Shown: positions 3,464 to 62,071 of the stretch, piece by piece
Numbering within the stretch: the first letter of the stretch is position 1
Layout of the letters: every line of letters begins with the position of its first letter
Assembly (NCBI RefSeq): GCF_019175385.1
Contig: NC_083346.1
Span: 56,697,821 to 56,761,820 of the forward strand
Length of the DNA stretch: 64,000 bases
Direction of reading: 5' to 3'
DNA from: Lycium barbarum
Taxonomy: Eukaryota; Streptophyta; Magnoliopsida; Solanales; Solanaceae
Translations under genes and position numbers: made by a program
Notes under the pieces: model-generated
Told to the model about the DNA's origin: nothing
What the model saw: the letters and a program-made list of their open reading frames with translations, nothing else
The model's database searches: none

Positions 3464-3573
3464 CACTGCAAACACAATAACGGGTCACATCAGAATCACC
3501 CTAATAGCACAGCTCTATCGCACGATCTAAGATTCCAAGGAAGAGTAACACCCTAAATGCCCTGTAGCCTCCT

Positions 3574-3607
3574 GTTTATAGATGTGGTGCACAACACATC
3601 GATAAAC
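3574..3607 (-). promoter_or_regulatory. Leader stem-loop with GTGCAC loop (DIS-like), element B
   Basis: In element sense the outer stem GTTTAT/ATAAAC and inner stem GATGTG/CACATC enclose an 8-nt loop ending in the self-complementary hexamer GTGCAC (plus 3587-3592). It lies 44 nt from the primer-binding site and about 110 nt before gag. Compared with element A the inner stem carries a paired change (GATGTG/CACATC for GGTGTG/CACACC). By position and form it resembles a retroviral dimerisation initiation site. Function is inferred. Confidence 0.65.
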
Positions 3608-3651
3608 AAGACTCTACGAGACACGGCCTGTAGACATTCCGAGGACAAACC

Positions 3652-3663
3652 GCTCTGATACTA
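3652..3663 (-). promoter_or_regulatory. Primer-binding site of element B (tRNA-iMet type)
   Basis: Element sense reads TAGTATCAGAGC, one mismatch from the plant tRNA-iMet complement TGGTATCAGAGC. It lies four bases inside the 5' LTR end. Confidence 0.85.
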
Positions 3664-22689: not shown

Positions 22690-22802
22690 TTCTGAAACAC
22701 ACAATACACAGTTAAAGAGAGGGAAATCCTTATATCATGGCTCTATCGCACGATCTTATGAAGAAAAAAGGCCATCCATTCCTAAAATGCCTGCAGCCTC
22801 CT

Positions 22803-22836
22803 GTTTATAAGTGTGGCGCGCAACACACCCATAAAC
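22803..22836 (-). promoter_or_regulatory. Leader stem-loop with GCGCGC loop (DIS-like), element D
   Basis: In sense the stem GTTTAT/ATAAAC plus GGGTGTG/CACACTT (two G-U pairs) encloses a loop ending GCGCGC (plus 22816-22821), fully self-complementary. It lies 46 nt inside the primer-binding site and 113 nt before gag. The loop hexamer differs from A, B and G but is still a palindrome. Confidence 0.65.
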
Positions 22837-22882
22837 AATACACTACTGGAGAAGGCTCGTAGACACACCCTAGGACAAAACT

Positions 22883-22894
22883 TCTCTGATACCA
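22883..22894 (-). promoter_or_regulatory. Primer-binding site of element D
   Basis: Sense TGGTATCAGAGA, one base from the tRNA-iMet complement, four bases inside the 5' LTR. The LTR terminal CA has become TA (22899-22900). Confidence 0.85.

Positions 22895-27644: not shown

Positions 27645-27674
<30 letters not shown>
27645..27674. repeat. (AT)n microsatellite
   Basis: About 15 AT units in the G 5' LTR. Only about five are present in the 3' LTR at 33904, so it expanded or shrank after insertion. Confidence 0.9.
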
Positions 27675-27676
<2 letters not shown>

Positions 27677-27812
27677 CGATGTTACGAACTTTGGAGTTCC
27701 TTTATAAGTTTCCGTATGTCATAGTTTCAGTTTGATTATATTTAACAGGTTCATGTACGGGTGTCCAGTTTGGGCACTAGTCATGGCCTACGGGGTTGGG
27801 TCGTGACAAAAA

Positions 27813-27824
27813 TGGTATCAGAGC
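27813..27824 (+). promoter_or_regulatory. Primer-binding site of element G
   Basis: Exact TGGTATCAGAGC (tRNA-iMet complement), four bases after the LTR. Confidence 0.9.
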
Positions 27825-27866
27825 AGTTCATCCTCGGAGTGTCTACAGACCGTGTCTAGTAGAGTC

Positions 27867-27902
27867 GTTTTTATCGGTGTGTTGTGCACCACATCTATAA
27901 AC
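27867..27902 (+). promoter_or_regulatory. Leader stem-loop with GTGCAC loop (DIS-like), element G
   Basis: Stem TTTAT/ATAAA plus GGTGTG/CACATC (one G-U pair) around a loop ending GTGCAC (27884-27889). It is preserved in an element without any gene, as expected for a packaging or dimerisation signal acting in cis. ATCGTGCGAT follows at 27950-27959. Confidence 0.65.
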
Positions 27903-27959
27903 AGGAAGCTACAGGACATTTAGGATGTTACCTTTCTTTCATATCTAAGATCGTGCGAT

Positions 27960-30900: not shown

Positions 30901-31457
30901 GAAAGTGACACATGATGCTGAGGATTCCAGAATACGGACTGTAACAGCGGAGTAAAGCAAGGATATTGGAGTACAAAAATATTATCCTCTGGGAAATTTC
31001 GTTTTACTCGTAAAACCTGCGAAGGGTCTACAAGTTACCAAAGGCATGCGATACTCCAGGGATATTGAAGTCTAATGAACCGACGAGGGACGTCTTCACG
31101 TTATAAAAATCACATTTAAAGAGTCGAGCCATGACTACGTGTACCATGAATACAAGTCTGAATCAATCGATGACAGTACAACTGAACAGTATGCAGATAA
31201 GAGAGACAGTAACACTTCAGCAGAACGGCTCGAAATACAACTGATAACCAACTGTGAAACAAAGAGAAGAGTAAAGGCAATGACGTGGAATAATTACCTC
31301 GAGAAGGAACAGAAGGAGGAAATATTACAGGAATGACTGTGTAGAGGCCTGGAATGCGTTATAACGAATTATAGCGAATCGACCAGTGGAAGAGGTATGT
31401 GAAGGGCATAATTAAACAAGAGGACACTTGAGAAAGTATTGGCAATTCAGGATCAGT
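27960..31457 (+). other. Non-coding, purine-rich internal region of element G
   Basis: No frame exceeds about 142 codons and none shows gag, protease, RT or integrase motifs on either strand. From about 28600 on, the plus strand is markedly A+G-rich with little C. Frames listed on the minus strand (28006-30759) are low-complexity by-products of that bias. No tandem repeat or RNA gene was noticed. Confidence 0.7.
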
Positions 31458-31458
31458 T

Positions 31459-31494
31459 AACATTCGAGGACGAATGTTCTAAAGGGGGTAAGGA
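31459..31494 (+). promoter_or_regulatory. Polypurine tract and hairpin of element G
   Basis: The inverted repeat AACATTCG-AGGA-CGAATGTT (31459-31478) is followed by the purine tract AAAGGGGGTAAGGA up to the LTR at 31495. Confidence 0.85.
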
Positions 31495-34048: not shown

Positions 34049-34053
34049 CAAGA

Positions 34054-43876: not shown

Positions 43877-44343
43877 ATTGGTGTTATAGCCCGTATCTTG
43901 TGTGTTTGGAAATTCCAAAGTCGTCGTGGAAAGTTAAGGGAGAGACCATTTTCAAAAATTATTTTAATGTACAAGTTGGTTATGGATATTATTTATGAAT
44001 ATTATTGTATGGAAATATTGAGAAAGGTTAAGGGTAAAAAGAGAAACTCACAAAATGGTAAAATGGTAATTTCACAAGTATTCAAGAAAATGGAAGAATT
44101 CCCTAGGAAATAAAAAAAAAGGAGCATGTGACCATTTTATAAGTGAAGGGGGCAAAGTATAAATATGGATGGACTAAAGTGTAAAAGGGAAGACACTTGG
44201 TCTTCTTTGACCAAGTGAGAAAAGTCAAGCAAAGAAAAGTAAAAATCAAGAAAATGGAAGAAATTTCTAGAGAGGGATCATGTGGCTATATTCTTATTTT
44301 GAGGGTCCAAATTATAAGTATGGAAAATTGGTGGAAGACATGT

Positions 44344-44356
44344 ATATATATAAATA
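44344..44356 (+). promoter_or_regulatory. TATA box of LTR L
   Basis: TATATATAAATATA some 460 bp into the LTR, followed about 80 bp later by GGCCATGGTTGGCCATGG, an inverted repeat with two AUGs reminiscent of the short ORF hairpin in G. Confidence 0.45.
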
Positions 44357-46007
44357 TAAGAGTCATATTTTAATGGAAGGAACTAGAAAGGAAGAAAGAA
44401 AGAAAAAGAAAGAAGAAGAGAGGGAGAGAGATTCGGCCATGGTTGGCCATGGAAGGTGACCAAGAATTTTTTTTTTATATTCTTCTAGCCTTCCTACTAA
44501 ATGGAAGGTCCTTTACAACACGGAAGAGTTGTTGGAGCAAGAAAATCCTTCACTTGAACAAATCCATAACCTTGACTAAAAGGAAGCTTGAGAGGAAAAG
44601 GTAAGAACTTAACCTTCTTTTATATGTTATGGGTGATTATGAGTGTGGTAGAATGAAGAAATCCATGAAATTCATGAAATATGAATATGTATGGTGTTTG
44701 GCCGAAAATGTGTTGCATGGTATAGAAAAGATGAATTGATTTTATTTTAGTAGTTTGATTGTGGTGTTGTGAAATCCATAATGTAAAATGAATGAAAAAC
44801 CATGAATGTAATATGTTGGAATGGTAGCCGTATGGAGTAGTGTTGGCCGTGTATATATGTTGTATTGAAGAGAATATTGAGTTAATTCTATGTAGTATGT
44901 TGCTTGTTGTTGTAATGTATAGAAACCATGGAAAATTTCATGAAAATATGAATGTAGTTGTTGTAGCCGAATGGGGTATGCTTTGGCAAGTTGTGGTGCC
45001 TTAACTCTAATTGATATTTTAGTGTTGTTGTTATGGATTCTATGATGAAAAATGAGAATTTAATGATTGAAAATGAAGTTGGAGTCGGTTGTAAGTTGTT
45101 GGAGGAGATAATGTGATTTTCATATAGTTCTTGTGTTATTGTGGTTAATGTTGTCAATGTGCGGAATGTTGATGTAGTTTATGAATTTGGAAGGTGTTGG
45201 ACGAAATAGTATGTTGATTAAAGTGCTTTGAAAGTCATATGAATTGAATTGAATTGAATCGAGTTGAATTGAATTGAATAGAATTGAATGTTGAAGTGTT
45301 GCTAAAATGATTGCTAGTATTGTTGTTGGTTTGGCCGGGTCAAATTCCCGGATTGTTGTTGATTGAAATTAGTCATATTAGATTTTTGGGGATGGTGTAT
45401 TTACAGGGGAAGTGCTGCCGAAATTTCGGCAGACAAAGTGTTTCTTTGAGAATCAACTTTCAAATGCTTTAACCAAGGTTTGGTAAATGTGACCTAATTG
45501 TAGATTTTGGCGAATTTGGAACGTGAATTTGGAGAAGCGTAAGGAGCGGAAAAAGGTATGTAAGGCTTCACCCTTTCTTCTTTGGCATGTCTTAGACATA
45601 ATAGGTCGAATACGAGCCTCGGGGACAACTCTATTCTCCGGAATCCGCGCCTAAAGTTTTCTTTTTTTCAATCAGTAGAATTGAACTAAAAAGTGTGCAA
45701 AATGTTGGAAGAATTTCCTAAACCTCTAGAACTCGCATAAATAGGACCCGACTACCCTAAAACCCTCACAAGTAACGCCATGACATGTAACATATGTAAA
45801 TTTGGTACGCCGCCTCATTTGACCCGAGGTGGGCCCATGGTCCCCGGATTTTCCTTATTGTTCCGTTTGATTTATTTTAAAGCTGAATCCAAAAGAAACC
45901 TTCGATCCTTATTCCATTACCAAATGACAAGTATTGTACCTATCCCAACGAGAATACTTCCATGACGATAATGATAACGATAATGTCAGAAAACAGAATA
46001 TGCCTAT

Positions 46008-49000
46008 TGTCACGACCCAACCCCGTAGGCCGTGACTAGTGCCCGATCTGGGCACTCAAACACATTCTAATATACAGCAGAAGCCGACGAGGCTTTATTT
46101 CAAATTTAGCTAATTTCCAGAAAAATTTCGGCAGAGTTTCCTTTGTTTTACGGACTATCCCATATACCCTGCACGCAGAAAATACCAACAAAGGCCACAC
46201 AGGGCCAACAGAGTAACATTTAAATATATGCGGACCGGCCGCCGCGGCGAATGGGATCGCCCAAACACAACATATACACACAACTGTACAGAAAGATCCC
46301 AACCCACAAACATGTCTACAGACCTCTAAATGGACCAACAGAATCATATGGCGGGACAGGGCCCCGCCGTACCCATGAACGAGAATACACACATATAGAA
46401 GTAACAAACTGTACCAAAAGATGGCTCTGAATAAAAGAGCGCTCCAAAAATAGCAGAATGAGATCCTAAGCGGACGGATCAGCAAACCTGTCGTCGGTAC
46501 CTGCGCGGCATGAAGACGCAGCCCCCCAGGAAAGGGGGTCAGTACGAAATATGTACTGAATATGTAAAGCCTGAGTTGCAGAAACAAAATCATAACTGGT
46601 ATAGAACGTACAGAATAAACAGAAAAATCCAAAGTATCAGATACATAATTTCAAAACATGCAGAGTGTGTACAGAAACATATGTCATATCAAATCCGGCC
46701 CCTGCCAAGGGACTCGGTAGACAGAACGTGGCCACCCTCCCGACGCTGGTGCCACAACACAGAAGAATCAGAATGGGGGCATAACCCCGTCACATATTAT
46801 ATCATATCAGATGGCCATAGCAAATCATATCAGAACAAGCGTACATGGCACAGCATACTCCACAAACCCATGTACGCGTATACCTGCCCCCTCACATCGA
46901 GGCACGGCGAACAATGCAAAGGATCACGCTTGACAACATATCCTTGCCCGGGCTCAGTGTGGGAATCATTGGGGCATACACGAATGGAGTAGTGAGAGAC
47001 TAATGCAATTAAAATATCATAAATGTTTTCAAGGACTCAATGAGGCATATCAAGGGCAAACAAATCCAATGAAGTCGGACGGGATCATAATAAAAGCATT
47101 TCGGACATCATAATAAATTACAGAAGTATAACCTTCCTGAAGTCGTTCCGAGTGTCAAAATAATTTATCAGACTTAATAGAATATTTAAAACCATATTCG
47201 TTAGGTAATTAAAAGGGTAGTCAAAACGTTTCTTTCAAAAAGCGTTCGAAAAGGAGACTTTAGTACATTAAGGGCAAAACCGGGAATAGCGGGCCACCTC
47301 GGAACAAGCAAGGCGGTGGGCTCAAATTACGCCCTTTAAGCTTATGGGGTCACCTATAAAGGTTCTACGGACATTCTATAGCTTTTCAAGGAGTTTAGAG
47401 AAAGTTTGCATAATTTCAGGAAAAGCATATCAAAATGGTTCAATTCTACTGAAGGAAAAACTGAGATTTTCTCTTGCGGATTCCAATGGCCAAGAAGGTC
47501 TTTTGAGGCCCGAATCCGATCCTAAAACACTTAGACATGCCAAAAGAAGGATCGGGGTAGCTTTACATACCTTTTGAGCTTTTTAAGCCTATCCAAGCTC
47601 ACTCTCCGTTTCGTCGAAAATCTGCAAATGGTCACATTTACCAATTGTAAGTTATAGATGCTACAAATTCAATTCAACTCTTATTTGTCTACCGAAATTT
47701 CGGCAGCACTTCCCCTATACATATAGCACCCCCGAGAATTCAACTCGGCTCACAATCATCAACAACAACCCAAACAACAACATCAACATCAACAACAAAC
47801 ACTAGAAACACAATATGGCACAACTAGTTCTACTTGCCGACATAATGCCATAACCTTCATTTCAACTTCAATTTCCAAACCAATTTCAATGATTTCACAT
47901 GCATTATCAAACTAGATCGTCACAACATAGTTTAGAAACGTTTCATGTCGTTTCCTCAAGTTATACACACAATATACATAATATACAAACTTTCCGCCAA
48001 AGTCATAATTCACTCAAAACTTCTAATCTCTGGCATACATATTCATAACATGTTTCCAATTTCCAAATTCGTCAATGATCATCATAATTAACAACCAAAT
48101 AACTTCATTTTCATAATGTCGGAAAATCATACTAAAGCGACGTAAGTTTCTACGTTCCATTTCAATACAAACTCATATCGTTTTACTTTCATTTACATTG
48201 CAAGAATCACAATAACACAACTAACACATTACACAAACTTGATTCATTTCCATTCCAACTCTAACATACCACACGGCCATATGCTCTCTTGATCAACTTC
48301 AACTACATTCATTCAACTTCCAATTCCAATATGCATTTCATCACAACTACAACTAGAATATAACATGAATTCAACACATTATGGCTATGCAACATATACA
48401 TACACACGGCTACACCTATATACCACACACCCACTTTGCAAACTTCCATTTCTCCATACAATCAACACATTTCTACCTACTACAACCGAAACAAAACTCC
48501 ATAACACAAGAATAAAGGATAAATTCTTACCTTTTCCTCTAGTCTTCTTTACTTGAATGTATGGTCACTTTGATGAAATAAGTGCTTCTCGCTCCAAACC
48601 AACTACACCAAGTTGAGAAGGGACCTTGAATTAGTAGGAAAACCACAAAAGAAAATTTTTAGGAGCAATATTTTTTGTGGTGATTTTTGGCACCTCAAAC
48701 CCGAAACCCTCTCTCTTTTCTTGCTTGGCTTGCTTTGTTTTTTCTTTCTTCTATTCATTCTCTTGAATCTTCTACTATATAGCCAATTAATCACATAGGA
48801 ATTTAATTAATTCCCATGGGCTTGGATCCCCCTATGTGGCCGGCCAAGCCTTGGCTTTGGGCCTCTCTTTACTTAATTTTTTTTTCCAAGCCCAATTGCT
48901 CAAATTCTTATTTTGTAATCCCCGAAACTAATTTCCAAAATTCTAAAATTGCCCTTAGTCTTGTTCGTCACTCCCACATCAATATTAGTTCATGCACGAC

Positions 49001-49091
49001 TCCTATGTCATATAAAATCAACTTGACCTTAACTCTCAAAGATCCAAGATATTTCAAATTTTCCAAACGCGTGAAAACACGGGATATAACA
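46008..49091 (-). repeat. 3' LTR of A (3084 bp)
   Basis: Ends TGTCACGACCC and GGATATAACA. I count about 14 differences from the LTR at 54293-57377, roughly 0.4-0.5 percent. Shared blocks: GGCGGG/CCCGCC hairpin 46350-46368 and double-hairpin block 46496-46570. A TATA box (sense GGCTATATAG) is at about 48775-48784. Frames of 60-198 codons recur in both LTRs only because the LTRs are near-identical. Confidence 0.95.
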
Positions 49092-49127
49092 TTCTCCCCC
49101 CCTTTAGAACATTCGTCCTCGAATGTT
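49092..49127 (-). promoter_or_regulatory. Polypurine tract and hairpin of A
   Basis: Sense CTAAAGGGGGGGAGAA next to the LTR (49092-49107), preceded by AACATTCG-AGGA-CGAATGTT (49108-49127). Confidence 0.85.
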
Positions 49128-49172
49128 AAATTAATCTTATAGGGTCTGAAAATACTTTGGGGAAGTTTATGT

Positions 49173-50543
49173 TTATAGACAGCACATATGACACACATTC
49201 ATTACTGAAATAAAATTAAGCAAGGATTCAGGATTACCTGTGGGTATAGGGAACAGATGAGGGTATTTCTTTTTCATCTCCTCTTCGGCCTCCCAGGTCA
49301 TTTCTTCCCTATTGTTATTCCGCCACAGCACCTTAACAGAGGCTACATCTTTGTTCCGGAGCTTCCTTACCTGGCGGTCTAGAATGGCTACGGGCTGCTC
49401 CTCGTAAGATAACTGCTCCGTCACCTGAAAATCATCTGCAGGAAATATTCTGGAGGGATCACCGATGCATTTGCGGAGCATAGATACATGGAATACTGGA
49501 TGTACCGCTTCCAACTCAGATGGCAGATCTAACTCATAGGCGACATTTTCAATTTTTCGCACAATCAGATAAGGCCCAATGTAACGCGGACTGAGCTTAC
49601 CCTTTTTGCCGAACCGCATCACGCCCTTCATAGGCGATACCTTCAGAAATACCCAATCACCAACCTGGAATTCCAAAGGTCGACGTCGTTTATCCGCATA
49701 TGACTTTTGTCGGCTCTGGGCTGCCAATAGTCGCTCTCGGATAAGTTTCACCTTATCTACTGCCTGCTGGATCAGATCTGGGCCAACTAATTCTGTCTCG
49801 ACAATATCAAACCAGCCGACCGATGACCTGCATTTCCTGCCATACAAAGCTTCGTACGGAGCCATCTGGATGCTGGAATGGTAGCTGTTATTATAAGCAA
49901 ATTCAATCAATGGCAAGTGATCCTCCCAGCTACCTCTGAAATCAATAACACAGGCCCGCAACAAATCTTCAAGTGTCTGGATAGTGCGCCCGGCCTGTCC
50001 GTCACTCTGAGGATGAAAAGCTGTGCTCAGGCTCAGCTGAGTCCCTAATCCTTCCTGAAAAGATCTCCAGAAGTTCGCTGTGAACTGAGCACCTCTGTCA
50101 GTGATAATAGATATAGGAACTCCATGAAGCTTCACTATTTCTTTAATATAAAGCCTGGCATAATCCTCGGCGGAATAAGTAGTTCTGACGGGGAGAAAAT
50201 GGGCTGATTTTGTCAGCCTATCAACAATAACCCAGATGGAATCATACTTCCGTGGAGTGCGAGGCAACCCTGTAATGAAGTCCATATTAATGACCTCCCA
50301 CTTCCACGTCGGAATTTCCATTTCCTGCAACAGTCCACCCGGTTTCTGGTGTTCAATCTTGACCTGCTGACAATTGGGACACTGGGCGACGAACTCGGCG
50401 ATGTCCCGTTTCATGCCATCCCACCAGTATAAGCATCGGAGATCATGGTACATCTTCGTAGACCCAGGATGGACCGAATAGCGAGCATAATGTGCCTCGC
50501 TCATAACCTGCTGCCGAAGGCCTACAATATCAGGTACACACAA
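49173..50543 (-). CDS. int: Integrase of A, full-length frame with catalytic Glu replaced
   Basis: 456 codons without a stop. Residues about 13-58 form the HHCC domain (H-Y-A-R-Y-S-V-H-P and CPNCQQVK). The core has MDFITGLP, VDRLTKSAHFLP (Asp) and TDRGAQFTANFW (Asp). At HPQSDGQAGRT the expected Glu is Gly (codon at 49989-49991); D (QVERT) and C (QAERT) keep Glu. Residues about 290-430 hold GPYLIVRKIENVAYELDLP and a chromodomain-like tail ending NNNREEMTWEAEEEMKKKYPHL. An upstream TAG at 50580-50582 separates it from RNase H. As read, the protein could bind DNA but not catalyse strand transfer. Confidence 0.9.
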   Translation of the reverse strand: MCVPDIVGLRQQVMSEAHYARYSVHPGSTKMYHDLRCLYWWDGMKRDIAEFVAQCPNCQQVKIEHQKPGGLLQEMEIPTWKWEVINMDFITGLPRTPRKYDSIWVIVDRLTKSAHFLPVRTTYSAEDYARLYIKEIVKLHGVPISIITDRGAQFTANFWRSFQEGLGTQLSLSTAFHPQSDGQAGRTIQTLEDLLRACVIDFRGSWEDHLPLIEFAYNNSYHSSIQMAPYEALYGRKCRSSVGWFDIVETELVGPDLIQQAVDKVKLIRERLLAAQSRQKSYADKRRRPLEFQVGDWVFLKVSPMKGVMRFGKKGKLSPRYIGPYLIVRKIENVAYELDLPSELEAVHPVFHVSMLRKCIGDPSRIFPADDFQVTEQLSYEEQPVAILDRQVRKLRNKDVASVKVLWRNNNREEMTWEAEEEMKKKYPHLFPIPTGNPESLLNFISVMNVCHMCCL

Positions 50544-50579
50544 CCTGCCCTTAAATAATAAAGTCCCGTCCGGAGTTAA

Positions 50580-51266
50580 CTAGAACGGAGTCTTCTCCTT
50601 ACCATAGGCTGTGTCTCTGTATCGTGCCAAAACAGGATCTTCATATTGATGCCGCTTGATATCTTCCTTAATAGATGATTCATAAACCCCTCGGACAGAA
50701 ATCCGTGTACCTCCAGAATCGGCCAGACGAACCCCAAGATTAGCCAACTGATAAATGTCACGTACTATCTCTCTCCTGTCTGGCTGTAAATCTACCAAGC
50801 TGCCCATAGATTTCCGGCTAAGCGCATCTGCAACAACATTAGCCTTGCCCGGATGATACAGAATATCCACATCATAGTCTTTCAGGAGCTCCAGCCACCT
50901 CCGCTGCCGCAAATTAAGCTCTTTCTGCCTGAAAATATACTGGAGACTCTTATGATCTGTATAGATATCAACATGAACGCCATATAAATAATGTCTCCAT
51001 ATCTTCATGGCATGGATCACCGCTGCAAGCTCCAGATCGTGAGTAGGATAATTCTTTTCATGCTTTTTCAATTGCTGAGAAGCATAAGCTATAACTCTGC
51101 CGTGCTGCATCAATACACAGCCCAATCCCACGCCAGAAGCGTCACAATAAATAACATATCCATCGGGTTACTCTGGAAGAGTCAGAACTGGGGCTGTAGT
51201 CAGCTTCTCTTTCAGCAACTGGAAGCTTCGTTCACAAGCATCAGTCCACTGGAACTTGGCTCCCTT
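50580..51266 (-). pseudogene. RNase H of A, broken
   Basis: Starts after the TAG at 51267-51269 with K-G-A-K-F-Q-W, has TAA at 51168-51170 (Glu in the second copy), then the 184-codon frame: YCDASG just before it, [42 protein letters not shown] and NVVADALSR. These carry the RNase H acidic residues. It ends at TAG 50580-50582, where relatives have Gln (TPFQLTPDG). A spacer of about 80 residues follows the RNase H proper. Confidence 0.9.
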
Positions 51267-52412
51267 CTAAGTTAGCCTTGTCAAAGGCGCTGAAATCGAA
51301 GCAAACTTTTCCACAAATCTTCTGTAATAGCCAGCTAACCCCAGGAAACTACGTACCTCTGTGGGCGTCGTGGGTCTGGGCCAATTTTTCACGGCCTCAA
51401 TCTTCTGTGTATCCACCCGGACACCATCAGCTGCAATAATATGCCCCAGGAATGCCACTGAAGCCAGCCAGAATTCACATTTAGAAAATTTTGCATATAA
51501 TTTCCGATGCCGAAGTACCCCAAGTACCGCTCCCAGCTGATTTGCGTGCTCTGCCTCGGACCGAGAATAAACCAGGATATCATCGATAAATACAATTACG
51601 AATATGTCTAAGAATGGCCTGAATACCCGGTTCATTAAATCCATGAATACCGCAGGAGCATTAGTCAGCCCAAAAGACATAACTCTGAATTCATAATGCC
51701 CATATCTGGTCCGGAATGCTGTCTTAGGAATATCAGCCTCTCGTACCTGTACCTGATGATAGCCTGACCGAAGATCTATCTTCGAAAAATATCTGGCGCC
51801 CTGCAACTGATCAAACAAGTCATCAATTCTGGGGAGGGGGTATTTATTCTTTATAGTTACCTTATTCAGCTGCCGATAATCAATACACATACGCAGCGAC
51901 CCGTCTTTCTTACGCACAAATAATACCGGGGCTCCCCAAGGCGAAATACTGGGCCTGATAAAGCATTTTTCTAACAGATCCTTCAACTGCTCTTTCAGTT
52001 CTTTCAATTCTGTTGGTGCCATTCTGTACGGGGGAATAGATATCGGCTGAGTATCTGGAAGCAAATCAATAGTAAAATCTATCTCCCGCTCTGGAGGAAG
52101 GCCTGGAAGCTCTTCTGGGAACACATCTGGAAATTCATTAACCACGGGAACTGACTGAAGAGTCGGCGTTTCTGCTGTCAAGTCTTGTACCCGAACCATA
52201 TGATAAAAATAACCCTTCCTGATCATTTTCTTCGCCTTAAGGTATGAAATAAACTTACCTTTCGGCGATGCTGTATTACCGGCCCATTCTATAACTGACT
52301 CCCCGGGAAACAGGAAACGAACTACCTTATTTTGGCAGTCAACATTAGCATAACAGGAGGCTAGCCAGTCCATTCCCATAATAACATCGAACTCGACCAT
52401 ATCTAACTCCAC
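51267..52412 (-). CDS. Protease end and reverse transcriptase of A
   Basis: 381 codons. Residues 1-17 include the protease end DVIMGMDWL; about 90-330 form [34 protein letters not shown] (first catalytic Asp, near residue 200), [18 protein letters not shown] and [12 protein letters not shown] (Asp pair, near 275). The thumb and connection run to [19 protein letters not shown]. The frame opens after TAG 52467-52469 and closes at TAG 51267-51269; the second copy has the latter stop too. RT signatures are intact. Confidence 0.92.
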
Positions 52413-52466
52413 CAGATCTGCCTTGGTGTCACGGCCACATACAATTACAGAACAGTTTTTATATAC

Positions 52467-54089
52467 CTAATTTGCTATAATAAAGTCCCCAATCGGTGTG
52501 GCTACCTCAAACGGCTCTATAGGTTCAGATGTTATACCAATTTTACTAGCAACCAGAGGCGAAATATATGACAAAGTCGAACCTGGATCAATCAATGCAT
52601 ACATAGACCGAGAGAAAACCAATAATGTACCTGTAACGACATTAGGCGATGCCTCCTGATCCTGGCGGCTGGACAGAGCATAAATGCGGTTCGAAGGACC
52701 GCTAGTACTAGAAGCTCCACCACGGCCTCTGCCGCGACCCGCTGGTGCTGAAGTACCCGGCCCCGTAGGGCGCATAGCCACTGATGAAGATGAAGACCCG
52801 GCGGCTGATCCGGTAGGCTGCGCTGCACCACCCGAATTACCCTTATACGGGCAATCTCTCACAGAATGGCCCTGACGGCCACAAGAAAAACATGCACCGG
52901 TGGCTCTGTAGCACTCCCCAGGATGGTATCTACCACAGTAAGAACACTGAGGCCTAGGTGGCCTCGTCTGACCAGAACCCCTGTCTGTCCGCGAACCTGA
53001 AGCCCTGGAGCTCTGACCTGCTCCTGAATAACCTGGGCTATCAAATCTGCGACCTGTAGGCTGTGGAGGTGCGCTCTGTGCCGGCTGGGATAGATGTCTG
53101 CTAGGCTGTTGCGGCTGCTGAGGCTGCCTGCCCCGAGAATCTCCAGAATACCCAGATGATCTGGACCTCTTGGGCTGTCTCTGATCCTGGCTCCTATCAG
53201 GCTGACGCTCCCTATGCCGGTCCTCCATGCCCTGGGCGTGGGCCTGAATCCGGGCAATATCCATGCCGGGCTGAGCAGCCAATACCAAACAGCTGTCGAC
53301 AAAATAACGGTCCAGCCCCATATACCTGTGCATCCTGTCAGCCATAGTAGCTACCACAGCAGGTGCGTATCGGGCCAATGAGTCGAACTCCATACTGTAC
53401 TCTCGAACACTGCGACCCATCTGTCTCAGCAATAAGAATCTGTCAGCCTTGGCCCGCCGTAACTCCGGAGGCAGAAAATAACTAAGAAAAGCCTGAGAAA
53501 AATCATCCCAAACTGCTGGGGGAGCGCCGTCGCCTCTGGATAACTCCCATGACTCGAACCAATTTGCCGCTATATCATACAACCGGTACGAAGCCAATGT
53601 GACTGACTCTGTCGCGGAAGCATTAATAAAATGTAAGGTGCGCCGCATCTTCCTGATAAACTCCTCGGGATCCTCCTCGGGCTTTGTCCCGAAGAACTCT
53701 GGAGGGCCACAAGTCAAGAACTCACGGGCTCTCGAACTGTCACGCCTGTAAGCCCGGTCACCTCCCAGTCCGTGCCCCTGAACCTGTCCTGCCACAAGTC
53801 TGGTCAATAGCTGGACTGCCTCTCTCATAGTCTGATCCTCAGTCCCTGGCCGTGGAGTTGGGGGCTCAGGTACTGGAATCTCGGGAGCTGACGGTGGAGC
53901 CGCCCCTCGTCCTGCAGCTGCTGCTGCTGCAATCTCCTCTACATGTGGCGGTGTGGAAGAGCCCTCTGCCGGGGGAAAAATATCAGGAGCAATATGAGCA
54001 TGGGCCCTGGTAACCCTCTGGGCCCGACTAGTCTCTCCCACAGCTGCTGCCTTGGCCTTTTGGGTCGCTGTCGCCTTTTTTGGAGGCAT
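52467..54089 (-). CDS. gag: Gag and protease start of A
   Basis: 540 codons from MPPKKATATQK. An Ala/Pro-rich N-terminus (1-120) is followed by the gag domain (about 127-250: PPEFFGTKPEEDPEEF, YRLYDIAANWFESWE, YFLPPELRRAKADRFL, DSLARYAPAVVA). A Ser/Gln/Arg-rich basic linker leads to zinc knuckles at about 385-418 (CSYCGRYHPGEC, then CFSCGRQGHSVRDC). The protease start is ALIDPGSTLSYI with catalytic Asp (about 497). The frame ends at TAG 52467-52469, just before VYKNCSVIV, which continues the protease in frame. Gag itself is undamaged, the only such gag in the window. Confidence 0.92.
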   Translation of the reverse strand: MPPKKATATQKAKAAAVGETSRAQRVTRAHAHIAPDIFPPAEGSSTPPHVEEIAAAAAAGRGAAPPSAPEIPVPEPPTPRPGTEDQTMREAVQLLTRLVAGQVQGHGLGGDRAYRRDSSRAREFLTCGPPEFFGTKPEEDPEEFIRKMRRTLHFINASATESVTLASYRLYDIAANWFESWELSRGDGAPPAVWDDFSQAFLSYFLPPELRRAKADRFLLLRQMGRSVREYSMEFDSLARYAPAVVATMADRMHRYMGLDRYFVDSCLVLAAQPGMDIARIQAHAQGMEDRHRERQPDRSQDQRQPKRSRSSGYSGDSRGRQPQQPQQPSRHLSQPAQSAPPQPTGRRFDSPGYSGAGQSSRASGSRTDRGSGQTRPPRPQCSYCGRYHPGECYRATGACFSCGRQGHSVRDCPYKGNSGGAAQPTGSAAGSSSSSVAMRPTGPGTSAPAGRGRGRGGASSTSGPSNRIYALSSRQDQEASPNVVTGTLLVFSRSMYALIDPGSTLSYISPLVASKIGITSEPIEPFEVATPIGDFIIAN

Positions 54090-54198
54090 AACGGCAAATG
54101 TAACAATTCGTTAGGGAGGAATCATCCTGATAACACAGCTCTATCGCACGATCTAAGACAGAAAGAAGGGTAGTATCCTAAATGCCCTGTAGCCTCCT

Positions 54199-54232
54199 GT
54201 TTATAGGTGTGGTGCACAACACACCGATAAAC
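54199..54232 (-). promoter_or_regulatory. Leader stem-loop with GTGCAC loop (DIS-like), element A
   Basis: Sense stems GTTTAT/ATAAAC and GGTGTG/CACACC, separated by a single C-T mismatch, enclose the loop TTGTGCAC with palindrome GTGCAC (plus 54212-54217). It lies 44 nt from the primer-binding site and 109 nt before the gag start. ATCGTGCGAT follows (plus 54143-54152). Confidence 0.7.
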
Positions 54233-54276
54233 AAGACTCTACTAGACACGGTCTGTAGACATTCCGAGGACGAACC

Positions 54277-54288
54277 GCTCTGATACCA
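54277..54288 (-). promoter_or_regulatory. Primer-binding site of A
   Basis: Exact sense TGGTATCAGAGC (tRNA-iMet), four bases inside the LTR. Confidence 0.9.
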
Positions 54289-54292
54289 CTTT

Positions 54293-57200
54293 TGTCACGA
54301 CCCAACCCCGTAGGCCGTGACTAGTGCCCGATCTGGGCACTCAAACACATTCTAATATACAGCAGAAGCCGACGAGGCTTTATTTCAAATTTAGCTAATT
54401 TCCAGAAACATTTCGGCAGAGTTTCCTTTGTTTTACGGACTATCCCATATACCCTGCACGCAGAAAATACCAACAAAGGCCACACAGGGCCAACAGAGTA
54501 ACATTTAAATATATGCGGACCGGCCGCCGCGGCGAATGGGATCGCCCAAACACAACATATACACACAACTGTACAGAAAGATCCCAACCCACAAACATGT
54601 CTACAGACCTCTAAATGGACCAACAGAATCATATGGCGGGACAGGGCCCCGCCGTACCCATGAACGAGAATACACACATATAGAAGTAACAAACTGTACC
54701 AAAAGATGGCTCTGAATAAAAGAGCGCTCCAAAAATAGTAGAATGAGATCCTAAGCGGACGGATCAGCAAACCTGTCGTCGGTACCTGCTCGGCATGAAG
54801 ACGCAGCCCCCCAGGAAAGGGGGTCAGTACGAAATATGTACTGAATATGTAAAGCCTGAGTTGCAGAAACAAAATCATAACTGGTATAGAACGTACAGAA
54901 TAAACAGAAAAATCCAAAGTATCAGATACATAATTTCAAAACATGCAGAGTGTGTACAGAAACATATGTCATATCAAATCCGGCCCCTGCCAAGGGACTC
55001 GGTAGACAGAACGTGGCCACCCTCCCGACGCTGGTGCCACAACACAGAAGAATCAGAATGGGGGCATAACCCCGTCACATATTATATCATATCAGATGGC
55101 CATAGCAAATCATATCAGAACAAGCGTACATGGCACAGCATACTCCACAAACCCATGTACGCGTATACCTGCCCCCTCACATCGAGGCACGGCGAACAAT
55201 GCAAAGGATCGCGCTTGACAACATATCCTTGCCCGGGCTCAGTGTGGGAATCATTGGGGCATCCACGAATGGAGTAGTGAGAGACTAATGCAATTAAAAT
55301 ATCATAAATGTTTTCAAGGACTCAATGAGGCATATCAAGGGCAAACAAATCCAATGAAGTCGGACGGGATCATAATAAAAGCATTTCGGACATCATAATA
55401 AATTACAGAAGTATAACCTTCCTGAAGTCGTTCCGAGTGTCAAAATAATTTATCAGACTTAATAGAATATTTAAAACCATATTCGTTAGGTAATTAAAAG
55501 GGTAGTCAAAACGTTTCTTTCAAAAAGCGTTCGAAAAGGAGACTTTAGTACATTAAGGGCAAAACCGGGAATAGCGGGCCCACCTCGGAACAAGCAAGGC
55601 GGTGGGCTCAAATTACGCCCTTTAAGCTTATGGGGTCACCTATAAAGGTTCTACGGACATTCTATAGCTTTTCAAGGAGTTTAGAGAAAGTTTGCATAAT
55701 TTCAGGAAAAGCATATCAAAATGGTTCAATTCTACTGAAGGAAAAACTGAGATTTTCTCTTGCGGATTCCAATGGCCAAGAAGGTCTTTTGAGGCCCGAA
55801 TCCGATCCTAAAACACTTAGACATGCCAAAAGAAGGATCGGGGTAGCTTTACATACCTTTTGAGCTTTTTAAGCCTATCCAAGCTCACTCTCCGTTTCGT
55901 CGAAAATCTGCAAATGGTCACATTTACCAATTGTAAGTTATAGATGCTACAAATTCAATTCAACTCTTATTTGTCTACCGATATTTCGGCAGCACTTCCC
56001 CTATACATATAGCACCCCCGAGAATTCAACTCGGCTCACAATCATCAACAACAACCCAAACAACAACATCAACATCAACAACAAACACTAGAAACACAAT
56101 ATGGCACAACTAGTTCTACTTGCCGACATAATGCCATAACCTTCATTTCAACTTCAATTTCCAAACCAATTTCAATGATTTCACATGCATTATCAAACTA
56201 GATCGTCACAACATAGTTTAGAAGCGTTTCATGTCGTTTCCTCAAGTTATACACACGATATACATAATATACAAACTTTCCGCCAAAGTCATAATTCACT
56301 CAAAACTTCTAATCTCTGGCATACATATTCATAACATGTTTCCAATTTCCAAATTCGTCAATGATCATCATAATTAACAACCAAATAACTTCATTTTCAT
56401 AATGTCGGAAAATCATACTAAAGCGACGTAAGTTTCTACGTTCCATTTCAATACAAACTCATATCGTTTTACTTTCATTTACATTGCAAGAATCACAATA
56501 ACACAACTAACACATTACACAAACTTGATTCATTTCCATTCCAACTCTAACATACCACACGGCCATATGCTCTCTTTATCAACTTCAACTACATTCATTC
56601 AACTTCCAATTCCAATATGCATTTCATCACAACTACAACTAGAATATAACATGAATTCAACACATTATGGCTATGCAACATATACATACACACGGCTACA
56701 CCTATATACCACACGCCCACTTTGCAAACTTCCATTTCTCCATACAATCAACACATTTCTACCTACTACAACCGAAACAAAACTCCATAACACAAGAATA
56801 AAGGATAAATTCTTACCTTTTCCTCTAGTCTTCTTTACTTGAATGTATGGTCACTTTGATGAAATAAGTGCTTCTCGCTCCAAACCAACTACACCAAGTT
56901 GAGAAGGGACCTTGAATTAGTAGGAAAACCACAAAAGAAAATTTTTAGGAGCAAGATTTTTGGTGGTGATTTTTGGCACCTCAAACCCGAAACCCTCTCT
57001 CTTTTCTTGCTTGGCTTGCTTTGTTTTTTCTTTCTTCTATTCATTCTCTTGAATCTTCTACTATATAGCCAATTAATCACATAGGAATTTAATTAATTCC
57101 CATGGGCTTGGATCCCCCTATGTGGCCGGCCAAGCCTTGGCTTTGGGCCTCTCTTTACTTAATTTTTTTTTCCAAGCCCAATTGCTCAAATTCTTATTTT

Positions 57201-57377
57201 GTAATCCCCGAAACTAATTTCCAAAATTCTAAAATTGCCCTTAGTCTTGTTCGTCACTCCCACATCAATATTAGTTCATGCACGACTCCTATGTCATATA
57301 AAATCAACTTGACCTTAACTCTCAAAGATCCAAGATATTTCAAATTTTCCAAACGCGTGAAAACACGGGATATAACA
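54293..57377 (-). repeat. Middle LTR of A (3085 bp), shared by both internal regions
   Basis: 5' LTR for the full internal region and 3' LTR for the truncated one. Nearly identical to 46008-49091. GGCGGG/CCCGCC hairpin 54635-54653; double-hairpin block 54781-54856; TATA box at about 57061-57070. Confidence 0.95.
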
Positions 57378-57413
57378 TTCTCCCCCCCTTTAGAACATTC
57401 GTCCTCGAATGTT
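57378..57413 (-). promoter_or_regulatory. Polypurine tract and hairpin of the second A copy
   Basis: Same purine tract and AACATTCG/CGAATGTT hairpin as at 49092-49127. Confidence 0.85.
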
Positions 57414-57458
57414 AAATTAATCTTATAGGGTCTGAAAATACTTTGGGGAAGTTTATGT

Positions 57459-58829
57459 TTATAGACAGCACATATGACACACATTCATTACTGAAATAAA
57501 ATTAAGCAAGGATTCAGGATTACCTGTGGGTATAGGGAACAGATGAGGGTATTTCTTTTTCATCTCCTCTTCGGCCTCCCAGGTCATTTCTTCCCTATTG
57601 TTATTCCGCCACAGCACCTTAACAGAGGCTACATCTTTGTTCCGGAGCTTCCTTACCTGGCGGTCTAGAATGGCTACGGGCTGCTCCTCGTAAGATAACT
57701 GCTCCGTCACCTGAAAATCATCTGCAGGAAATATTCTGGAGGGATCACCGATGCATTTGCGGAGCATAGATACATGGAATACTGGATGTACCGCTTCCAA
57801 CTCAGATGGCAGATCTAACTCATAGGCGACATTTTCAATTTTTCGCACAATCAGATAAGGCCCAATGTAACGCGGACTGAGCTTACCCTTTTTGCCGAAC
57901 CGCATCACGCCCTTCATAGGCGATACCTTCAGAAATACCCAATCACCAACCTGGAATTCCAAAGGTCGACGTCGTTTATCCGCATATGACTTTTGTCGGC
58001 TCTGGGCTGCCAATAGTCGCTCTCGGATAAGTTTCACCTTATCTACTGCCTGCTGGATCAGATCTGGGCCAACTAATTCTGTCTCGCCAATATCAAACCA
58101 GCCGACCGATGACCTGCATTTCCTGCCATACAAAGCTTCGTACGGAGCCATCTGGATGCTGGAATGGTAGCTGTTATTATAAGCAAATTCAATCAATGGC
58201 AAGTGATCCTCCCAGCTACCTCTGAAATCAATAACACAGGCCCGCAACAAATCTTCAAGTGTCTGGATAGTGCGCCCGGCCTGTCCGTCACTCTGAGGAT
58301 GAAAAGCTGTGCTCAGGCTCAGCTGAGTCCCTAATCCTTCCTGAAAAGATCTCCAGAAGTTCGCTGTGAACTGAGCACCTCTGTCAGTGATAATAGATAT
58401 AGGAACTCCATGAAGCTTCACTATTTCTTTAATATAAAGCCTGGCATAATCCTCGGCGGAATAAGTAGTTCTGACGGGGAGAAAATGGGCTGATTTTGTC
58501 AGCCTATCAACAATAACCCAGATGGAATCATACTTCCGTGGAGTGCGAGGCAACCCTGTAATGAAGTCCATATTAATGACCTCCCACTTCCACGTCGGAA
58601 TTTCCATTTCCTGCAACAGTCCACCCGGTTTCTGGTGTTCAATCTTGACCTGCTGACAATTGGGACACTGGGCGACGAACTCGGCGATGTCCCGTTTCAT
58701 GCCATCCCACCAGTATAAGCATCGGAGATCATGGTACATCTTCGTAGACCCAGGATGGACCGAATAGCGAGCATAATGTGCCTCGCTCATAACCTGCTGC
58801 CGAAGGCCTACAATATCAGGTACACACAA
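57459..58829 (-). CDS. int: Integrase of the second A copy, catalytic Glu replaced
   Basis: 456 codons, differing from 49173-50543 by one residue that I see (DIGETEL for DIVETEL). It shares the Gly at the DDE Glu position (codon 58275-58277), so that loss predates the tandem duplication. HHCC, both Asp motifs and the chromodomain-like tail are present. Confidence 0.9.
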   Translation of the reverse strand: MCVPDIVGLRQQVMSEAHYARYSVHPGSTKMYHDLRCLYWWDGMKRDIAEFVAQCPNCQQVKIEHQKPGGLLQEMEIPTWKWEVINMDFITGLPRTPRKYDSIWVIVDRLTKSAHFLPVRTTYSAEDYARLYIKEIVKLHGVPISIITDRGAQFTANFWRSFQEGLGTQLSLSTAFHPQSDGQAGRTIQTLEDLLRACVIDFRGSWEDHLPLIEFAYNNSYHSSIQMAPYEALYGRKCRSSVGWFDIGETELVGPDLIQQAVDKVKLIRERLLAAQSRQKSYADKRRRPLEFQVGDWVFLKVSPMKGVMRFGKKGKLSPRYIGPYLIVRKIENVAYELDLPSELEAVHPVFHVSMLRKCIGDPSRIFPADDFQVTEQLSYEEQPVAILDRQVRKLRNKDVASVKVLWRNNNREEMTWEAEEEMKKKYPHLFPIPTGNPESLLNFISVMNVCHMCCL

Positions 58830-58865
58830 CCTGCCCTTAAATAATAAAGTCCCGTCCGGAGTTAA

Positions 58866-59552
58866 CTAGAACGGAGTCTTCTCCTTACCATAGGCTGTGT
58901 CTCTGTATCGTGCCAAAACAGGATCTTCATATTGATGCCGCTTGATATCTTCCTTAATAGATGATTCATAAACCCCTCGGACAGAAATCCGTGTACCTCC
59001 AGAATCGGCCAGACGAACCCCAAGATTAGCCAACTGATAAATGTCACGTACTATCTCTCTCATGTCTGGCTGTAAATCTACCAAGCTGCCCATAGATTTC
59101 CGGCTAAGCGCATCTGCAACAACATTAGCCTTGCCCGGATGATACAGAATATCCACATCATAGTCTTTCAGGAGCTCCAGCCACCTCCGCTGCCGCAAAT
59201 TAAGCTCTTTCTGCCTGAAAATATACTGGAGACTCTTATGATCTGTATAGATATCAACATGAACGCCATATAAATAATGTCTCCATATCTTCAGGGCATG
59301 GATCACCGCTGCAAGCTCCAGATCGTGAGTAGGATAATTCTTTTCATGCTTTTTCAATTGCTGAGAAGCATAAGCTATAACTCTGCCGTGCTGCATCAAT
59401 ACACAGCCCAATCCCATGCCAGAAGCGTCACAATAAATAACATATCCATCGGGTTCCTCTGGAAGAGTCAGAACTGGGGCTGTAGTCAGCTTCTCTTTCA
59501 GCAACTGGAAGCTTCGTTCACAAGCATCAGTCCACTGGAACTTGGCTCCCTT
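58866..59552 (-). pseudogene. RNase H of the second A copy
   Basis: A 212-codon frame opens at [21 protein letters not shown], with Glu where the first copy has TAA, and ends at the shared TAG 58866-58868. The preceding TAG at 59553-59555 is shared as well. Acidic motifs as in the first copy; differences include HALK for HAMK. Confidence 0.9.
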
Positions 59553-59998
59553 CTAAGTTAGCCTTGTCAAAGGCGCTGAAATCGAAGCAAACCTTTCCAC
59601 AAATCTTCTGTAATAGCCAGCTAACCCCAGGAAACTACGTACCTCTGTGGGCGTCGTGGGTCTGGGCCAATTTTTCACGGCCTCAATCTTCTGTGTATCC
59701 ACCCGGACACCATCAGCTGCAATAATATGCCCCAGGAATGCCACTGAAGCCAGCCAGAATTCACATTTAGAAAATTTTGCATATAATTTCCGATGCCGAA
59801 GTACCCCAAGTACCGCTCCCAGATGATTTGCGTGCTCTGCCTCGGACCGAGAATAAACCAGGATATCATCGATAAATACAATTACGAACATGTCTAAGAA
59901 TGGCCTGAATACCCGGTTCATTAAATCCATGAATACCGCAGGAGCATTAGTCAGCCCAAAAGACATAACTCTGAATTCATAATGCCCATATCTGGTCC
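59553..59998 (-). pseudogene. 3' half of RT of the second A copy, truncated
   Basis: Begins abruptly at [14 protein letters not shown] and includes [17 protein letters not shown] and [15 protein letters not shown]. The reading frame upstream of 59998 is LTR sequence, so the apparent 167-codon start ([11 protein letters not shown]) is not part of RT. Confidence 0.9.
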
Positions 59999-60081
59999 AA
60001 TATAAAATCAACTTGACCTTAACTCTCAAAGATCCAAGATATTTCAAATTTTCCAAACGCGTGAAAACACGGGATATAACA
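59999..60081 (-). repeat. LTR stub at the outer end of the A array
   Basis: Identical to the last 81 bp of the A LTR (TATAAAATC... to GATATAACA), one extra base, joined directly to RT. It ends at the target duplication CCTAT, so it is the original outer end of the 5' LTR. Confidence 0.9.
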
Positions 60082-60576
60082 CCTATGATAAGTACGAAAA
60101 GAATGATTCCACGACTAAGGGCCTTGAGCTAAAAATCCAATGTGAATATGAAAGTGTTATACTAGTTCTTGAACCTTAATTTTATTCCGTAGCTATGACA
60201 CTAGTTTCTAAAAGACTTCAAAGAATATGAATTGACGGATATAATGCCCATGATTTCATTCTATGCTCTCTCTTAAGGCTATTTTCCGTTGGTAGTCTCG
60301 CCTTAAAATACTCGTTCCTTCAAGGTGAGACAAAGTGACCATGAGTATTCCATAACGTAATCGGAGGTCACCGACCTTACGTCACTCCGATGGACACATG
60401 ACTTCTTTGGGCTCTCATGCATGCCAGTTGTATGACATATGTATATGAACGTGAATATGTATATGTATATGTACATGGGGAAAAGGGGGAAGGGCCACTG
60501 TTATATCACCACCTGATTCAGCTGGATTTCGTCCCGGACGCGGGATATGGGAGAGCCGGATACGGCGTCTGTATTT

Positions 60577-60578
<2 letters not shown>

Positions 60579-60645
<67 letters not shown>
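60579..60645. repeat. (TA)n microsatellite in LTR L
   Basis: About 33 TA units. Poly-Ile/Tyr reading frames over it are artefacts. Confidence 0.95.
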
Positions 60646-60648
<3 letters not shown>

Positions 60649-61359
60649 GACACTGTTGGGGAGGGGGGTGGGAGAGCCGATGTACTCGGCGTCTGTGAAT
60701 GTAAATGAAGGACACCGTTTTCTGAAATGTTCTGTTTTTCTGTATATGTAAATAAGAAACACCGTTTCCCTAAAAAAAGAAACTAAGCATGCATGACATC
60801 TGCAGAAAGGCATTCCTATGTACAGGTTAAATCTGTTCCAAGATAAGCTCCATATGTCTATTCCGTTATTATTCATACTGTATATTCCTTTATTATGTCA
60901 CTATTCATGCCTTACATACTCAGTACATTACTCGTACTGACCCCTCTTCTTCGGGGGCTGCGTTCATGCCGCGCAGGTACACCAGCTGAGCCACAGTTAT
61001 CATAGAAGATGTTCCAGCGGAGTTGGCGGGCTCCACTTGTTCTGGAGTGCTGCCGAGTCAGAGTATATGAGCTATGGTGTTTGTTCAATGTTAGAGACTT
61101 TGCAGACAGAGTCATGAGTATAGAGTGTCAGCTTGGTAGACGGCTTCACCTGTCACAATGTTATTACGTTTCATGTCGCGGGTCCCATATGATGATAGAC
61201 ATTACTTATGAAAAAAAAAATATTGGAGGGCTTACCATGTATTTATTTCTTAATTGATACAAGAGTTTATCTATGTAATAAGAGTCAGCGGGTTCGCTCG
61301 GCTCCAGATATGGGGTCGGGTGCCCATCACACCCTAGTAAAGTCGGGGTGTGACAATTG

Positions 61360-61865
61360 GCTCCCCGTGAAGCCATCCAAACTGTATACCATTGGATCGA
61401 GACATCTCTCAATCTATACGACGCTAACTCCACCGACTCGGTGTCCGAAGCATGTATCAATCGAAGCATCCTCAACATACCATCAATGAAGTCCTGAGGG
61501 TCCTCCTCTGGCTTTGACCCAAAGAATTCTGGAGGGTTCAAAGTGATGAAGTCACGGGCCCTTGCACTAACAGCCCTATCACCTTGCCCTGTATTTTGCC
61601 ACTGAGTCTGAGCAACAACCAACTAGGTAAGCAAATGTATTGCCTCCTTCACATCTTGGCCTGAAGCATCTGGTGGAGGAGCTGGAGGTGCTGGGGCTGA
61701 GGCTCCCTCACGCTCCTCTAATATAGGTACTGAACGGGAGGACTGAGATTGAGCCGCACTCAGGGACTCTCTTTCCTCTACTACCGACGGCGGTGCTCTT
61801 TCAGCCCGCTTTTCTGCCACCGTCTTGCCCTTTTGGGCTGCTGTAACCTTTCTCTTTACAGGCAT
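61360..61865 (-). pseudogene. gag: Gag N-terminal half of element K, broken
   Basis: Start MPVKRKVTAAQKGK at 61865; Ala/Pro/Glu-rich region to a TAG near 61623-61625; then V-V-A-Q-T-Q-W, LNPPEFFGSKPEEDPQDFIDGMLR and YRLRDVSIQWYTVW up to the insertion of L. It continues at 43876. Confidence 0.85.
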
Positions 61866-61979
61866 TTCTGAAATACACAACACACGATTAAGGGACAAGA
61901 ATTTCTTATACCATAGCTCTATCGCACGATTCTTATGAAGAAAGAAGGTCATTTATTCCTAAAATGTCCGCAGCTTCTC

Positions 61980-62013
61980 GTTTATAAGTGTGGCGCGCAA
62001 CACACCGACAACC
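61980..62013 (-). promoter_or_regulatory. Leader stem-loop with GCGCGC loop (DIS-like), element K
   Basis: Inner stem GTGTG/CACAC and loop ending GCGCGC (plus 61993-61998), as in D. The outer stem is weakened by substitutions (GACAAC for GATAAAC). ATCGTGCGAT lies at 61921-61930. Confidence 0.6.
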
Positions 62014-62059
62014 AAGACTCTACTAGACACGGCTCGTAGACACACCCTAGGACTGAACT

Positions 62060-62071
62060 GCTCTAATACCA
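62060..62071 (-). promoter_or_regulatory. Primer-binding site of element K
   Basis: Sense TGGTATTAGAGC, one C-to-T change from the tRNA-iMet complement. Confidence 0.85.

Follow-up and report, generated by a model that had tools for sequence, protein, structure and literature searches.

A candidate RNA dimerisation hairpin with a self-complementary loop in the leaders of plant Ty3 chromoviruses

A family of Ty3 elements and the hairpin in its leaders

The window (the whole stretch of DNA analysed, 64,000 nucleotides) contains five related elements, A, B, D, K, and G, and the five leader stretches that the initial annotation had singled out in them were all present in the sequence as given. 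From the orientation of the primer-binding site (PBS), the transcribed strand is minus for A, B, D, and K, and plus for G. The PBS is complementary to the plant initiator tRNA-Met. Element A is a Ty3 chromovirus with this type of PBS. Three of its frames gave Pfam matches that exceed the curated cut-offs for gag, protease, reverse transcriptase (RT), the integrase zinc-binding domain, and the chromodomain; matches to the integrase core and to the zinc knuckle fell just short of their cut-offs. Among the 120 listed of 7980 RT matches, the named plants with the highest identities over most of the query were Solanum (up to 77%), followed by Nicotiana (up to 73%), which points to a probable Solanaceae host. 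The stem-loop described below, which we call the rod, starts 34 nt past the PBS in A, with 99 nt between its end and the first gag ATG. Coordinates are collected in Table 1.

Table 1. Leader features of the five elements and the gag-protease frame of element A
Feature	Position	Strand	Remarks
Element A PBS, TGGTATCAGAGC	54277..54288	minus	PBS search
Element A rod	54189..54242	minus	alignment, fold, covariance model
Element A loop hexamer GTGCAC	54212..54217	minus	
Element A gag-protease frame	52467..54110	minus	downstream of leader; first Met codon 54089-54087
Element B PBS	3652..3663	minus	one mismatch
Element B rod	3564..3617	minus	inner-stem G-C replaced by A-U
Element B loop hexamer GTGCAC	3587..3592	minus	
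Element D PBS	22883..22894	minus	one mismatch
Element D rod	22793..22846	minus	upper 13 positions all paired, 1 lower pair broken
Element D loop hexamer GCGCGC	22816..22821	minus	
Element K PBS	62060..62071	minus	one mismatch
Element K rod	61970..62023	minus	outer stem weakened, 1 pair broken
Element K loop hexamer GCGCGC	61993..61998	minus	
Element G PBS	27813..27824	plus	
Element G rod	27859..27912	plus	2 outer pairs broken; element without long frame
Element G loop hexamer GTGCAC	27884..27889	plus	
ATCGTGCGATAG motif	54141-54152, 3515-3526, 22743-22754, 61919-61930	minus	
ATCGTGCGATAG motif	27950-27961	plus	

The elements differ in their layout. Two 5.7-kb stretches (46004-51712 and 54289-59998), which lie ~8.3 kb apart, are 99.6% identical; a truncated second copy seems to follow element A, with an LTR common to both. 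Element K seems to be a D-like element, the gag region of which is split by a nested insertion (43882-61355) with the target-site duplication ATTGG at 43877-43881 and 61356-61360. Element G (25232-34051) is a large LTR element with LTRs that are 95.4% identical and a 3.7-kb internal region, in which no frame exceeds 152 aa (judged by frame length) and no match of at least 200 nt to the other elements within the window was found. Its LTRs match those of A only piecewise, and over the leader and the U5 end the two elements are 90% identical. A small LTR element at 9195-12401 has a PBS-like TGGTATCGGAGC at 10105, a 321-aa frame, and a leader without the hairpin. The annotation had assigned the hairpin to all five elements that keep a leader; this is true of the A/B/D/G/K family, and it has to be limited to that family because this sixth PBS-like site belongs to a small unrelated element that lacks the hairpin.

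A two-part stem with an 8-nt loop ending in a self-complementary hexamer had been described in each of the five leaders. Alignment and folding confirmed this architecture in all five and revealed that the stem is longer than was claimed: the predicted rod comprises 54 nt and 20 stem pairs. In A, the order is 4 bp, a 2x2 internal loop, 10 bp, a C.U mismatch, 6 bp, and the 8-nt loop. Below the 6 + 6 bp described earlier lie four further pairs (UCUU/AGGA), the 2x2 internal loop, and GUAG paired with CUAC or CUGC. The RNA-sense consensus, with small changes among the copies, is GUUUAU-C/G-GGUGUG-[UUGYGCRC]-CACACY-U-AUAAAC. In all five loops, the hexamer (GUGCAC in A, B, and G; GCGCGC in D and K) is preceded by UU and followed directly by the C of the stem. 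The 34-nt core of G is located at 27869-27902.

When the rod was folded in the context of the leader, the inner six stem pairs were predicted to form with a probability of 0.94-1.0, and each base of the hexamer to be unpaired with a probability of 0.92-1.0, in all five leaders. The z-scores of the isolated hairpins were -3.2 (A), -4.0 (B), -1.9 (G, 36 nt), -3.9 (D), and -0.6 (K). The isolated 34-nt piece of K prefers another fold, and in its leader context the hairpin is predicted to form with the hexamer exposed.

Two other features of the leader region were observed. A second hairpin is predicted at the U5/LTR end just 5' of the PBS (alignment columns 31-58; GTCACGGCC...GGGTCGTGAC in A), and all five elements preserve 10 of the 11 pairs. 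On the 3' side of the rod, ATCGTGCGATAG is invariant in the five leaders. This motif is near-palindromic (ATCG..CGAT) and can be read in several peptides from other contigs (in the RSCDRA or LDRAIE frames). A search of 46004-57300, the region of element A, found no exact complement of at least 10 nt as a long-range partner. The motif is perhaps a second contact or a Gag-binding site.

Conservation of the rod within and beyond the window

Both strands of the 64 kb, with low-complexity stretches left out, were scanned for hairpins with a GC-rich palindromic loop hexamer. Six places emerged, of which five are the leaders and the sixth is 4842-4877; the raw matches numbered 7 and 9 per strand, whereas six shuffled windows averaged 1.2. 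Dinucleotide shuffling, with 3000 shuffles per leader, produced a comparable hairpin with such a loop 12 times for A, 34 times for B, 3 times for G, 23 times for D, and 20 times for K. A covariance model of the hairpin matched the five leaders in the window, plus the same five places on the opposite strand. No Rfam 15 family reached its gathering score within the window, and no DIS-type family appeared at the hairpins of D and A up to E 10. The resemblance to miRNA precursor models in Rfam was weak (best E 0.049; 21.3 bits compared with a gathering score of 70).

Among the five copies, standard pairs were present in 96 of 100 stem cells and in 15 of 15 hexamer cells, compared with 29-56% in slid controls, and the four broken cells (one each in D and K, two in G) all lie in the outer stem. 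The mean column identity was 87% in the hairpin, 75% on its 5' side, 73.5% on its 3' side, and 55% further on. The tree length was 0.30 substitutions per site for the rod columns and 0.75 for the other columns from the PBS to the motif, which as a bare ratio is 0.4x; the two trees differ in where G attaches.

Changes on both sides of a pair were found in two pairs, one in the inner stem (G-C/G-U/A-U) and one in the hexamer (U-A/C-G). When the letters of the 3' side were shuffled, 14 of 500 trials reached the covariation score and 152 reached the count of two-sided pairs. Thus, covariation alone is weak evidence; the covariation term of RNAalifold contributed -1 of -57.5 kcal/mol. Likewise, GCGCGC can become GTGCAC by two CpG transitions, and since simple counting indicates that a double CpG decay of GCGCGC leaves a palindrome half the time, the change of the hexamer is not strong evidence by itself.

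Neutral evolution was simulated in 8 settings of 4000 runs each, with and without CpG hypermutability. The ancestor was A or an A/D hybrid, the branch lengths were rounded, and the simulated hairpin is one that had been chosen for looking good. With the branch lengths of the flanks, at least 96 of 100 stem cells remained paired in 0-0.025% of the runs; with the slower branch lengths of the rod itself, this was seen in 4-7%, or in 0.7-1.4% at matched numbers of variable columns. Runs with at least two two-sided pairs were frequent, amounting to 51-61% at flank rates and 5-20% at rod rates. Five hexamers that were all palindromic yet not identical occurred in 0.2-0.6% of the neutral runs and in 0-1.6% of the matched sets. 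In none of the seven matched sets, which comprised between 51 and 2052 runs, did stem pairing and a variable palindromic loop occur in the same run; the eighth setting yielded too few matched runs. The annotation had stated that the inner stem keeps its pairing while its letters vary. The covariation on which this leaned is thin, amounting to the two two-sided pairs.

Related sequences were sought outside the window. The translation of the leader in its sense frame, used as a protein query, retrieved 16 related short predicted proteins from other contigs (E 7e-14 to 0.2), 12 of which span the hexamer (these with E up to 5.5e-4). The antisense frame as a query gave three candidates, none of which was scored. 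The hexamer lies across three codons, so that the residues LCT can be encoded with GUGCAC and LRA with GCGCGC, and LCA or LRT can never be palindromic. The variable pair of the hexamer is forced to be complementary in all 12 spanning peptides, as U-A in ten and as C-G in two. The ten read LCT, and the other two (P0129 and P0132) read KPA, a third loop type. KPA corresponds to AAR CCN GC, which can contain a palindrome only as GCCGGC, given fitting third codon positions that the peptides do not reveal, and has AA before the hexamer; a loop of this type should read AAGCCGGC.

The peptides also constrain the stem. Sixteen stem pairs in the 12 peptides give 192 cells, of which 86 must pair, 90 can pair, 3 cannot, and 13 carry no data, compared with 33-51 unpairable cells in slid peptide controls. 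Of the three unpairable cells, two fall on the same inner-stem pair, in P0125 and in P0126, and the third falls on another pair, in P0127. P0128 has apparently lost a portion of the 3' arm. Reading ends within the hexamer codons in P0133 and before them in P0134-P0136 (at stops or contig ends). A palindrome is possible for 27% of random codon triples and for 27-44% of those produced by 2 to 5 random changes; the KPA type therefore gives mild support and is not proof. Many of the LCT peptides are near-identical and do not count as independent. Across the variants, all 5 DNA copies have a palindromic loop and all 12 spanning peptides allow one; the remaining 4 of the 16 peptides fall short of the whole hexamer, and the independent changes are few.

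More distant leaders were sought in DNA. The hairpin pattern was absent from viral contigs, and scans of these contigs with the RT protein and the RT alignment gave no relatives. Two matches to the 3' motif in viral contigs were rejected because their surroundings look unrelated. Plasmid and phage collections contained no match to the leader of A. Scanning genome contigs with the RT alignment yielded 14 Ty3-type loci (L001-L014), the best segments of which are 39-75% identical. These loci are in assemblies filed as bacteria and are apparently plant or other eukaryotic contamination. The covariance model found no match in them up to E 10. Exact PBS matches were present in L003, L004, L005, and L008 (one on each strand in the last); L004 is identical to L003 over the compared stretch. 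No such hairpin was found in the leaders of these four more distant, plant-like Ty3 elements. Those of L003/L004 and L005 form strong hairpins with short non-palindromic loops (GGGA in L003, UGUU in L005), and in L008 only 14 nt separate the PBS from the ATG. Thus, the palindromic loop is at most a feature of the family and is not general.

Structure, evolutionary rate, neutral simulation, and the copies on other contigs together support the view that the hairpin is kept by selection and that its self-complementary loop is predicted to be exposed.

Possible roles of the rod

The rod lies in the 5' region of the RNA between the PBS and gag, and a stable hairpin with a self-complementary apical loop is predicted in 5 of 5 leaders; both are expected of a dimerisation site. 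We consider that this hairpin in the leaders of plant Ty3 chromoviruses is probably a dimerisation initiation site that resembles those of retroviruses in function. The annotation had proposed a kissing loop for RNA dimerisation or packaging; the conserved hairpin and the exposed palindrome are supported, and dimerisation itself appears to be their best explanation. The first contact between two genomic RNAs would be made by their loops, with GUGCAC pairing to GUGCAC or GCGCGC to GCGCGC. The kissing contact would later convert to an extended duplex, possibly with the help of the Gag zinc knuckle, and dimerisation may be coupled to packaging. The predicted energies of the 6-bp duplexes are -7.9 (GUGCAC), -10.9 (GCGCGC), and -11.7 kcal/mol (GCCGGC). 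An extended dimer is predicted to lie 11.4 to 14.5 kcal/mol below two monomers; since, in the extended duplex predicted for A, the loop pairs with a shift of one base (UGUGCA, with G.U), this energy gives no support for the hexamer.

The slow evolution and the paired cells could be explained by the stem alone, if it were a packaging or translation signal that is recognised by Gag or that acts as a ribosome barrier or shunt, the loop palindrome being incidental. The distant leaders L003 and L005, with their strong hairpins and the non-palindromic loops GGGA and UGUU, fit such a signal. It leaves unexplained, however, that the loop varies and yet is self-complementary in all five DNA copies, with a forced complementary pair in 12 of 12 peptides, and that neutral loops were all palindromic while varying in only 0.002-0.006 of the simulations. 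We regard a signal of this kind as unlikely, though deserving serious attention. That the rod has no function, being a chance inverted repeat of the family founder that was inherited by descent, is improbable: the five copies are of one origin, double changes number just two and arise often under neutrality, and the hexamer change is of the CpG type, but the rod evolves more slowly than both flanks, its pairing exceeds the neutral expectation, and the hairpin survives in G, the LTRs of which match those of A piecewise, and in the copies on other contigs.

Roles that do not involve a second genome or that act at another level are weaker still. The long stem and the weak miRNA precursor scores could point to a small-RNA hairpin precursor, or the palindrome could bind a protein on the DNA; such roles are very improbable, as no Rfam family reaches its gathering score within the window, and the position after the PBS and the exposed hexamer would be left unexplained. 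Hardly credible is an extra contact with the primer, in which the 3' arm and the loop would pair with the D arm of the initiator tRNA-Met instead of another genome. D and K contain a 7-nt match (GCGCCAC) to positions 7-13 of this tRNA, but no run of at least seven Watson-Crick pairs occurs in the hairpins of A, B, and G, and the pairing would require an opened stem. With the match limited to D and K, tRNA pairing was rejected as the role of the hairpin. Dimerisation thus remains the preferred reading.

If the rod is a dimerisation site, its hexamer may bear on how elements interact. G has the same hexamer as A and B, and since it keeps an A-like leader as well, it fits a gene-less element that is packaged by a coding partner. 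The RNA of G would in that case be packaged by the Gag of A or B, and the same hexamer would be expected. As far as the peptides tell, the GUGCAC group consists of A, B, G, and ten external copies, and the GCGCGC group consists of D and K. A tentative and rather doubtful extension is that the hexamer acts as a compatibility code, in which GUGCAC, GCGCGC, and GCCGGC would separate partner groups, G would parasitise A and B, and the hexamer would set co-packaging and recombination.

Comparison with known dimerisation sites

The dimerisation initiation site (DIS) of HIV-1, in SL1, lies between the PBS and gag and has an internal loop in its stem, and the plant rod resembles it in both respects. 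According to the part of PMC5874298 that concerns the loop, HIV-1 favours the hexamers GCGCGC, GUGCAC, and GUGCGC, stress is laid on two central G-C pairs, and purines flank the hexamer. The plant rod shares the self-complementary six-base apical hexamer, in the forms GCGCGC and GUGCAC, and the central G-C pairs described there (PMC5874298). In contrast to the HIV-1 site, the predicted plant loop of 8 nt has UU before the hexamer and nothing after it, the flanking purines are missing, and the rod is longer with 20 pairs. The HIV-1 likeness that had been drawn in the annotation thus extends to position and hexamer and stops at the flanking bases. What we propose is that the plant rod works like a retroviral dimerisation site; it is not a member of the HIV-1 family, and common descent is not claimed.

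The closest counterparts among LTR retrotransposons are in yeast and barley. In yeast Ty3, the passages of PMC11381356 on PAL6 place the palindrome CUGCAG (nt 391-396) at the apex of a short hairpin near the 5' end of the RNA, within the GAG ORF, and report dimerisation in vitro driven by NC. Both systems are Ty3-type elements with a six-base palindrome in the apical part of a hairpin, whereas the plant GYGCRC lies upstream of gag in the PBS-gag leader, and the yeast site is experimental and the plant site predicted (PMC11381356). In yeast Ty1, loop-loop contacts between SL1a and SL3a are modelled as the start of dimerisation and packaging in the section concerned of PMC5454406; two different complementary loops are involved there, whereas the plant rod has one self-complementary loop. 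For barley BARE2, conserved dimerisation and packaging signals are asserted, and a Gag-less partner is packaged by its coding relative, in the relevant statements of PMC3735527. This resembles what is proposed for G, a non-coding plant element packaged by a coding relative, but BARE1/BARE2 belong to the Copia superfamily and the signal is given there without a structure (PMC3735527).

The idea of dimerisation is not new for LTR retrotransposons, given the sites reported from yeast Ty1 and Ty3 and those claimed in barley BARE. Among the papers listed from the open-licence literature of PubMed Central, we found no description of a dimerisation site in plant Ty3 elements, and the main text of a 2025 review (PMC12786077) contains no word starting with 'dimeri'. 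The claim that such a site is undescribed in plant Ty3 elements therefore stands within those papers, with the reservation that comparable sites are known from yeast and asserted in BARE.

In some plants, LTR retrotransposons account for up to 90% of the genome, according to the abstract of PMC12786077, and fairly little is known of packaged RNA outside BARE, in the words of the BARE authors in the cited part of PMC3735527. The defined hairpin makes the dimerisation of plant Ty3 RNA and the packaging of gene-less copies a question for gel assays. If the dimerisation reading is true, this family would apparently have arrived independently, in another kingdom, at two of the three hexamers that HIV-1 favours.
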